Made by a program: the position numbers and the translations under genes. Of a stretch of 64,000 bases of DNA, positions 7,262 to 14,982 are shown one piece after another (within the stretch, counting starts at the first letter, position 1; every line of letters begins with the position of its first letter). The stretch covers positions 806,001 through 870,000 of the forward strand of contig NZ_CP096658.1 of the NCBI RefSeq assembly GCF_023238445.1. The letters are read 5' to 3'. Origin of the DNA: Halorussus gelatinilyticus (GTDB lineage: Archaea > Halobacteriota > Halobacteria > Halobacteriales > Haladaptataceae). The notes under the pieces are model-generated. The model was not told where the DNA came from and searched no databases. It worked only from the letters and a program-made list of their open reading frames with translations.

Positions 7262-7401
7262 AGCCCGGAGTTATCCATCATCGCACAAAAACCTTCGCGT
7301 CGGGTGCTTTCGTTCTCGAATGCGCCGTCGAGAGACGGATCGGTCGTAGGGCGACTCACAATCTCTCACCGACAATTGAGAGATACTGTCCAATTTTACA
7401 A

Positions 7402-7420
7402 TATTTATAAAGATATAAAT
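7402..7420 (+). promoter_or_regulatory. Strong AT-rich promoter of the Cys-rich protein gene
   Basis: The stretch atatttataaagatataaat lies about 30-45 bases upstream of ATG 7449 and contains two overlapping TATA-like boxes. The whole interval 7380-7450 is much richer in A/T than its surroundings. Seen in sequence; strength is inferred. Confidence 0.6.
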
Positions 7421-7448
7421 AACTCGGGTGTAGAGATGAAAATATATA

Positions 7449-8036
7449 ATGGAATTTGATAGCAATACAATCGACCGGCGGAGCGTTCTCAAGAAGGTAG
7501 CGACGGGTGCAACGGTCATGGCCGGCGCAAGCGGTGTCGCAGGAGCCAAGACCGGAGACGTGTCACACACGATGGCCGACCACGAGGAGGCCGTCGCTGG
7601 ATACGAAGCGCCGGAGAAAGTTCGAGAAGTCGTCTCGAACCACGAGGACGCGCTCGAATCGCTCGCCGCCGAGGGCCTCGTTGAGGCGGAGGTTGCGGCC
7701 GATCTGACGGTCGACCCGAACGGCGACATGCGCGGAGACGAAAACGAACACGAGAAAGTAACGTCGATTCAACGAGCTGACGGGTCGGTCGAACCAGAGA
7801 TCAAGATCAACCGGATGACTGACAAAGGACGGCTGACGTTCGCAATTCGGCCGGAGAGCGACGTGCGATGGGCACTTCTTGGAGAGCGCGGGTCGGAGCC
7901 GAAGGTCCTCGACGGTGCGACTACGCTTAGCGTCTGCGATGGCGGGACGTGTGAGAAGGAATGCTGTAAATGGGAAACCTGTGAAGACCCCTGCTGGGGT
8001 GCGTGCGTGGACTGGTGCTACAAGTGTAACTGCTAA
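7449..8036 (+). CDS. Tat-exported protein with ten-cysteine C-terminal tail (halocin-like candidate)
   Basis: The 195-residue protein begins with a Tat signal: DRRSVLKK at 10-17, then a weakly hydrophobic alanine/glycine stretch to about residue 34. Residues 35-150 are acidic and lysine/glutamate-rich with no cysteine. The last 35 residues hold ten cysteines, including ECCKWETCEDPC and CVDWCYKCNC, the only cysteines in the protein. Known family knowledge: halocin C8 is a Tat-exported precursor whose C-terminal part has ten cysteines and is released as a peptide. The layout matches but the spacing does not, so homology is not claimed. Other options are a secreted metal-binding or disulfide-rich peptide. 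The gene is AT-richer than its neighbours, with a strong promoter, which suggests acquisition. Confidence 0.85.
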   Translation: MEFDSNTIDRRSVLKKVATGATVMAGASGVAGAKTGDVSHTMADHEEAVAGYEAPEKVREVVSNHEDALESLAAEGLVEAEVAADLTVDPNGDMRGDENEHEKVTSIQRADGSVEPEIKINRMTDKGRLTFAIRPESDVRWALLGERGSEPKVLDGATTLSVCDGGTCEKECCKWETCEDPCWGACVDWCYKCNC

Positions 8037-8063
8037 CTGTACAGTCCGTCCAGTTCGGCGTTG

Positions 8064-8068
8064 TTTTT
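8064..8068 (+). terminator. T-tract after the Cys-rich protein gene
   Basis: Five thymines (gttgtttttct) occur 28 bases after the TAA of the Cys-rich gene and before the convergent secD stop. Short T-tracts are typical archaeal terminators. Inferred. Confidence 0.4.
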
Positions 8069-8085
8069 CTCAAAAATGAGTTAGA

Positions 8086-14039: not shown

Positions 14040-14807
14040 TCAATTGTCGTCGTCGCCACAGCCGCCGGTCCGGATTTGGATTGGTTCGTCTAGTTCGAGC
14101 GAGATGCGCTCGGAGAGGCTCGCGGACCCCGAGAGAAACTGCCAATCGGTTATCCTCCCCTCGTAGTGGTCGCCGTAGAGCGCGGCCGCCTCGTTGAACG
14201 CTGGTTGGACGGTCACGGAGAACTCCTCGCCGAGACCGCGGAACGCGCCGCCGTCGGTGCCGGAGGTGCCCCACGTCCAGTCGATGCGGTGGTCGTCGCC
14301 CTCGGTCGCCCACTGGTCGTAGTTCGTCTCGGCGATGTCGCCGGTCTCGGGGTCCGGGTAGAGGTCGTCTTTGACCACCCACTCGCCGTCGGTCGGCATG
14401 TCGTACAACTGGAACGTCACCGCGCCGGCGTCCGGGTTGCCGACGCTCCCGTGAACGAAGACCAGACTCGTCCCCTTGGGTCCCTGATAGAGGAACGCGA
14501 TGCTGGTGTGTTCGCGCTGGAGGTTTCGCGTCCCCGCGGAGGCGTAGGTCACGCTCCCGTCGCCGACCGCGCCGTTTTCGTCCATCACTCGCTCGGCGGG
14601 CAGGTGGTACTCGTAGAACGTCTCGACCGGCAACTGGCTACGGAGCGGCCGAATCGGGACGCACCGCTCGCCCTGCACGAGGACGCACTGAGAGTCGTCC
14701 TGCGTCGCCCCCGCGCCGCGCGCCGCGGACGACCCGACTCCGAGTCCGCCGCCGACGGCGGCCAACAGCGACCGCCGAGTCGTCGTCACGCTGGTGTTCT
14801 CGTCCAT
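14040..14807 (-). CDS. Tat-exported protein, unknown function
   Basis: The 255-residue protein begins at ATG 14807 with a Tat signal (TTTRRSLLAAVGGGLGVG, about 9-26) and a likely cleavage near ARGAGA. The mature part has a cysteine pair in SQCVLVQGERCVPIRPL, a beta-rich body (HTSIAFLYQGPKGTSLVFVH) and ends with two further cysteine/glycine residues (TGGCGDDDN). No catalytic motif is recognised. It is probably a secreted or cell-surface beta protein. An upstream ATG at 14894 would put 29 residues before the Tat signal and is rejected. It is divergent from pgi. Confidence 0.8.
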   Translation of the reverse strand: MDENTSVTTTRRSLLAAVGGGLGVGSSAARGAGATQDDSQCVLVQGERCVPIRPLRSQLPVETFYEYHLPAERVMDENGAVGDGSVTYASAGTRNLQREHTSIAFLYQGPKGTSLVFVHGSVGNPDAGAVTFQLYDMPTDGEWVVKDDLYPDPETGDIAETNYDQWATEGDDHRIDWTWGTSGTDGGAFRGLGEEFSVTVQPAFNEAAALYGDHYEGRITDWQFLSGSASLSERISLELDEPIQIRTGGCGDDDN

Positions 14808-14982
14808 CTCTCGTTCGGCCACGGGAAGGGTGAATTTTGTTATCCGGTCGTTACTTCCGTTCCCCTCAGCCGGGAAATTAATCTGCGGTGACAAGTCGAG
14901 GCGGAGCGAGGTAGTTCGCTCCCGGCGGACCGGACCAGACCGGACCGGCCCATTTTTGGTCCGCGCCGTCGCCGTCTACGGC

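Follow-up and report, generated by a model that had tools for sequence, protein, structure and literature searches.

A gene of the haloarchaeon Halorussus gelatinilyticus quite possibly encodes the precursor of a secreted disulfide-rich peptide, built on a shared export and pro-domain and perhaps antagonistic to other haloarchaea. The gene lies in the stretch of 64,000 nucleotides that was analysed as a whole (the window), and its parts are the following:

7400 to 7448, + strand: AT-rich promoter region with the TATA-like sequence TTTATAAAGATATAAATA at 7404-7421; GC content of 33% over the 100 bases preceding the gene
7449 to 8036, + strand: gene for the precursor (Tat signal, body and Cys-rich tail), ATG start, 195 aa, homologs found
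7449 to 7556, + strand: N-terminal Tat signal region, residues 1-36, with the twin arginine at 7476-7481
7557 to 7934, + strand: Cys-free conserved body domain, predicted as three helices followed by five strands (AF2 model; alignment A3 of 60 homologs)
7935 to 8033, + strand: 33-residue tail with ten cysteines, CX4CX3CCX4CX3CX3CX3CX2CXC (from the sequence; low-confidence structure)

All ten cysteines of the window protein are located at residues 163-195, residues 1-162 are free of cysteine, and the chance that ten randomly placed cysteines would all fall in the last 33 of 195 residues is about 2e-8. The original prediction had described a ten-cysteine tail following a Tat signal and a Cys-free body; this layout stands, with the tail comprising the last 33 residues instead of 35. 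That the body is acidic is nothing unusual among haloarchaeal proteins. Tat export is supported by both motif and homology: the twin-arginine motif reads DRRSVLKK (residues 9-16), and its two arginines, R10 and R11, are invariant in all 29 aligned family sequences. The Tat model TIGR01409 scores 15.4 bits against the window protein, just under its curated cut-off of 16.7. Elsewhere in the window, another ORF (14040-14894, minus strand) also has a twin-arginine-like start, TTRRSLLAAVGGG.

The window gene belongs to a multi-copy family. Searching with the single protein returned a paralog in the source genome and homologs in 15 of the 28 genomes of the taxonomic family, several of them in one genome. 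A full-length profile (A1) matched 139 of 392 haloarchaeal genomes, with many weak matches covering the Tat signal and little else; the count to use is therefore the one obtained with a second, body-only profile (A3), from which the Tat signal and the tail were left out. This profile places the family in 59 of 392 haloarchaeal genomes and 24 of 95 genera, patchily distributed, and the richest genomes (G012, G024 and G035) have 7-10 matches each. In a sample of 295 genomes from the phylum, matches were found in the same order only. The source genome has three members, namely the window gene, a second gene at 2139029-2139694 and, near 1598255-1598767, a short one with six cysteines. Every good member consists of a Tat signal, a Cys-poor body of about 110-150 residues and a Cys-rich end. 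At one locus (L121, G208:C1:3414238-3416474), three family genes with 10, 8 and 14 cysteines are arranged in tandem, a possible site of duplication and divergence.

The body is the constant element of this family. An AF2 model computed with 54 homologs predicts three helices followed by five strands, mostly with pLDDT above 90. The body would fold on its own and is common to all members. Neither the PDB nor the viral models of BFVD contain a match to this fold at E <= 0.001, and the body sequence matches no PDB chain. Likewise, the family body has no counterpart among the Pfam, NCBIfam, PHROG and PADLOC models, and the window protein has no Pfam match at all.

The tail, on the other hand, varies between members, and it does so under an unusual rule. 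The cysteine count is even in 101 of 106 distinct tails, while the tails show 93 distinct spacings and mostly contain between 6 and 22 cysteines. As a control, other genes at the same loci with at least three cysteines were counted, and 30 of them have an even number and 55 an odd one. Among the five odd-count tails, some look cut or degraded (L205, L214); at L205:2080-2907 and L214:2119-2727 the body is recognisable and the Cys tail is missing or out of frame, and these may be decaying copies. Because the number of cysteines is even while the framework changes, disulfide-bonded peptides are indicated, and the tail sequences thus point to cysteines that form disulfides. The earlier suggestion of an exported protein with a disulfide-type tail is supported by the cysteine parity and by the twin-arginine motif kept throughout the family. 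The tail of the window protein is polar and acidic and is modelled at a pLDDT of about 49-59.

The same cysteines could instead chelate metal. According to this alternative, which the original prediction had left beside a disulfide-rich peptide, the protein is a secreted or surface metal binder of metallothionein type, with tail thiols holding Cu, Zn or Fe outside the cell. Cysteine makes up 23% of the tail residues, CC and CXC motifs and acidic residues are present, and the capacity for metal could be adjusted through the many copies that a genome may hold. Metal binding does not, however, require the even cysteine number seen in 101 of the 106 tails, which favours disulfides, and 93 spacings speak against one metal site. 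Exported thiols tend toward disulfides in an oxidising medium, which also counts against a metal binder. Furthermore, no metal transporter was recognised among the recurrent neighbours, and family members match no metal-binding family in Pfam or NCBIfam. We consider a metal binder decidedly unlikely.

Within subfamilies, purifying selection acts on the tails, and often more strongly than on the body. More specifically, simple NG86 estimates on short alignments give a tail dN/dS of about 0.06-0.26 inside many subfamilies, and identity is higher in the tail than in the body for the pairs L134/L139 (89% versus 73%), L109/L120 (81% versus 54%) and L102/L116 (76% versus 51%). This conservation inside subfamilies implies that the tail is a functional unit and no loose end. 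A hypervariable tail under positive selection was considered as a general rule and rejected, since tails are conserved in most subfamilies. In other pairs the tail changes faster than the body. One such pair is the window gene and its nearest relative, from G012, with an identity of 65% in the tail versus 76% in the body and two cysteines gained; the tail of this relative has 12 cysteines in a framework that overlaps that of the window tail.

Both base composition and genomic position suggest that members of the family come and go. The AT-rich promoter of the original prediction proves real, and low GC content extends into the window gene itself (GC 0.60; GC3 0.69 versus a median GC3 of 0.86 in its neighbours). 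The same holds family-wide: all of the 66 members compared have a lower GC3 than their neighbours, and the median GC content over the 100 upstream bases is 36%. The window gene is flanked by a small membrane-protein gene adjoining rnhB on one side and by secD on the other, both names being assigned by sequence recognition without a family search. In this rnhB-secD slot, 3 of 18 congeners carry a family gene, one of the three having two genes from different subfamilies, and in two genomes of another genus the slot is occupied by a third subfamily, which is oriented the opposite way. The remaining slot loci have no family gene within 1.5 kb. As 15 of 18 congeneric genomes lack the gene at this spot and its GC3 is low, the view that the gene was acquired is probably right; low GC3, AT-rich upstream sequence and slot turnover together are typical of genes that are repeatedly gained and lost.

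The slot beside secD seems to be a small insertion spot. In congeners, a pair of genes recognised by eye as an AbrB-like antitoxin and a MazF-like toxin replaces the Cys-tail gene at two of the slot loci:

L157:792-1418 (G021): AbrB-like/MazF-like pair
L160:793-1419 (G013): AbrB-like/MazF-like pair

In two genomes, members of two subfamilies (L097 and L100) are found beside the same zinc-ribbon protein gene; this site is another slot in which family members have been exchanged, as at secD. Another candidate for acquired DNA in the window is the segment 26001-27500, with a GC of 0.53 against about 0.67 around it. As for the source of such genes, a phage or plasmid origin was considered and rejected: tblastn against plasmid and phage collections returned no match, and PHROG and PADLOC returned no meaningful one.

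If the tail is antagonistic, immunity may reside with neighbouring genes in part of the family. The 81-aa membrane protein next to the window gene was considered as the cognate immunity protein and is rejected because it is present across the genus in congeners that have no family gene; the window locus has neither a dedicated immunity gene nor an adjacent ABC system. At several other loci, an ABC-2 ATPase and permease adjoin the family gene. ABC-2-type exporters often confer bacteriocin self-immunity. Pfam confirms ABC genes beside the family gene at five loci (at L144, the scan covered the ATPase and the permease was recognised separately), and a similar arrangement is seen at L183 and L185. 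Across 37 genomes, an ABC-2 permease is encoded no more than 2 kb away from 9 of the 107 family genes, a minority, versus 1.0 expected (P = 1e-6), a count that includes some related cases and three genomes chosen after their ABC genes had been seen; without these three genomes, 3 cases are observed versus 0.82 expected (P = 0.05). Pairwise identity among the ATPases is mostly 35-60%, which does not imply a single clade. One 16-Cys subfamily (L102, L112 and L116; G026 and G250) spans two archaeal taxonomic families with a strongly conserved tail, CxxPGxCQDC...CVCCxC...C, and an ABC-2 ATPase and permease adjoin each of its copies at unrelated genomic sites. Overall, the genes that recur around 60 loci belong to housekeeping functions or ABC systems or are unrelated ORFs.

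A constant body with a changing end would also suit a protein that is never cut. Under this explanation, the product is an adhesin, a mating or species-recognition factor or a virus-receptor decoy at the cell surface, exposing its varied disulfide-rich end; the shared body, the varied tail, the low GC3 and the slot turnover all fit surface genes under changing selection. We nevertheless regard it as unlikely, given that no membrane anchor or transmembrane segment is seen after the signal, that tails are strongly conserved inside many subfamilies, and that the ABC-2 exporters beside some members are left unexplained.

The closest known counterpart of a secreted peptide precursor of this kind is that of halocin C8. 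ProC8 is exported by the Tat pathway and matures into an immunity part, HalI, and a 76-residue C-terminal halocin, HalC8 (PMC11509114). Both precursors are encoded by a single gene and combine a Tat signal, a Cys-free body and a C-terminal domain with ten cysteines; in models of the window protein and ProC8, moreover, helices, five strands, a linker and the Cys region appear to follow in the same order. The two nonetheless differ in their C-terminal ends, the window tail being 33 residues long, polar and acidic, whereas the HalC8 peptide has 76 residues and is hydrophobic and helical. The halocin model TIGR04449 (cut-off 24 bits) matches neither the window protein, as scanned with NCBIfam, nor any of 29 family members, while it gives HalC8 61.5 bits and finds precursors in 37 of 293 genomes, congeners included. 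In 20 aligned TIGR04449 precursors the ten cysteines are invariant, as opposed to 93 spacings in the family of the window gene, and the ten cysteines of the window tail follow a different, shorter spacing. Membership in the halocin C8 family is rejected on these grounds, that is, the missing TIGR04449 match and the different cysteine framework.

The bodies were also compared. Two hhalign runs of the family body against the ProC8 body gave probabilities of 0.6-1.9%, which are not significant, so homology of the bodies is not established. The full-length profile had produced weak matches to C8 precursors (in G248, G162 and the G034:C4 locus, among others); these are absent with the body-only profile and are therefore put down to the Tat signal. 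What persists of the resemblance to halocin C8 that the original prediction had noted is the layout. A junction motif, [VILFT][ST][TI]Q, occurs just before the Cys region in 10 of 103 family members and 9 of 28 halocin-C8-type precursors versus 5 of 3297 genome windows as background; the counts were made after the motif had been spotted in these same sequences. Since only about 10% of the members carry it, a universal junction motif is rejected, and the window gene is among those without it. The shared order of elements and this motif may reflect distant shared ancestry or identical processing; we take them as leads rather than proof. A gene with the halocin C8 domain and a member of the family share a contig in one genome (L187, G059:C6); they are located at 109 kb and at about 102.8-103.5 kb, respectively, at most 6 kb apart.

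Other precursors provide further comparison. In conserved-leader, variable-core RiPP precursors, the N-terminal part is likewise shared and the cores differ. The family of the window gene differs from them by Tat export and by a body that is predicted to be a folded domain and not a short leader, and no modification enzyme was recognised by eye among the recurrent neighbours of 60 loci. Precursors of animal Cys-rich venom peptides, such as conotoxins, keep the signal and pro-region conserved, while their disulfide-rich peptides at the C-terminus vary. The organisms are unrelated and the family of the window gene is Tat-exported, so the analogy is one of layout, with no common ancestry implied. 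Taking it further, the family could form a venom-like haloarchaeal arsenal, in which a self-protecting Tat-exported pro-domain carries dozens of disulfide frameworks swapped in fixed slots, an extension we regard as doubtful.

Small disulfide-rich modules of varied framework are also typical of protease inhibitors, and a secreted inhibitor or signalling peptide of the cystine-knot type is a further candidate. Serine proteases secreted by haloarchaea do turn antagonistic precursors into their active form (PMC12893001), although no inhibitor family in Pfam or NCBIfam matches and the tails have no framework in common; we judge this explanation very unlikely. One of these precursors, HmHapP (HFX_0892) of Haloferax mediterranei, is secreted and an extracellular serine protease cuts the antagonistic fragment out of it (PMC12893001). 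Compared by description only, HmHapP offers protease activation as a possible route for the family of the window gene and differs from it in that the active part is an N-terminal helical fragment, for which cysteines are unmentioned (PMC12893001).

For the favoured reading, a disulfide-rich peptide precursor, the following mechanism can be proposed. The Tat signal would export the precursor, whose middle domain would probably serve, like HalI in ProC8, as a pro-domain, as an aid to folding or as a module for self-protection. The C-terminal 33 residues, judging from cysteine parity, would form up to five disulfides. An extracellular protease would probably release the tail as the active peptide, a step made plausible by the cleavage documented for the haloarchaeal precursor HmHapP (PMC12893001). 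Given different tails on the same body, the family would supply alternative peptides, which would most likely act against other haloarchaea, and in some subfamilies the neighbouring ABC-2 exporter may give immunity.

Halocin C8 already provides an example of a Cys-rich archaeocin precursor exported by Tat. What would be new is a multi-copy family with one body and dozens of Cys frameworks. Priority is uncertain: the 2019 survey by Makarova et al. in mBio is reportedly the main earlier one of archaeal antimicrobial peptides, and the family may already figure there. To our knowledge, only a few halocins are known at the sequence level. If the members are archaeocins, one body profile leads to about a hundred distinct disulfide-rich peptides, many of them from culturable hosts, and with pairs of relatives whose main difference is the tail, target specificity, self-immunity and the diversification of archaeal peptides become directly testable. 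Even if they are not antimicrobial, they constitute a widespread, unannotated family of secreted proteins that follows an unusual rule, an even number of cysteines in a changing framework.
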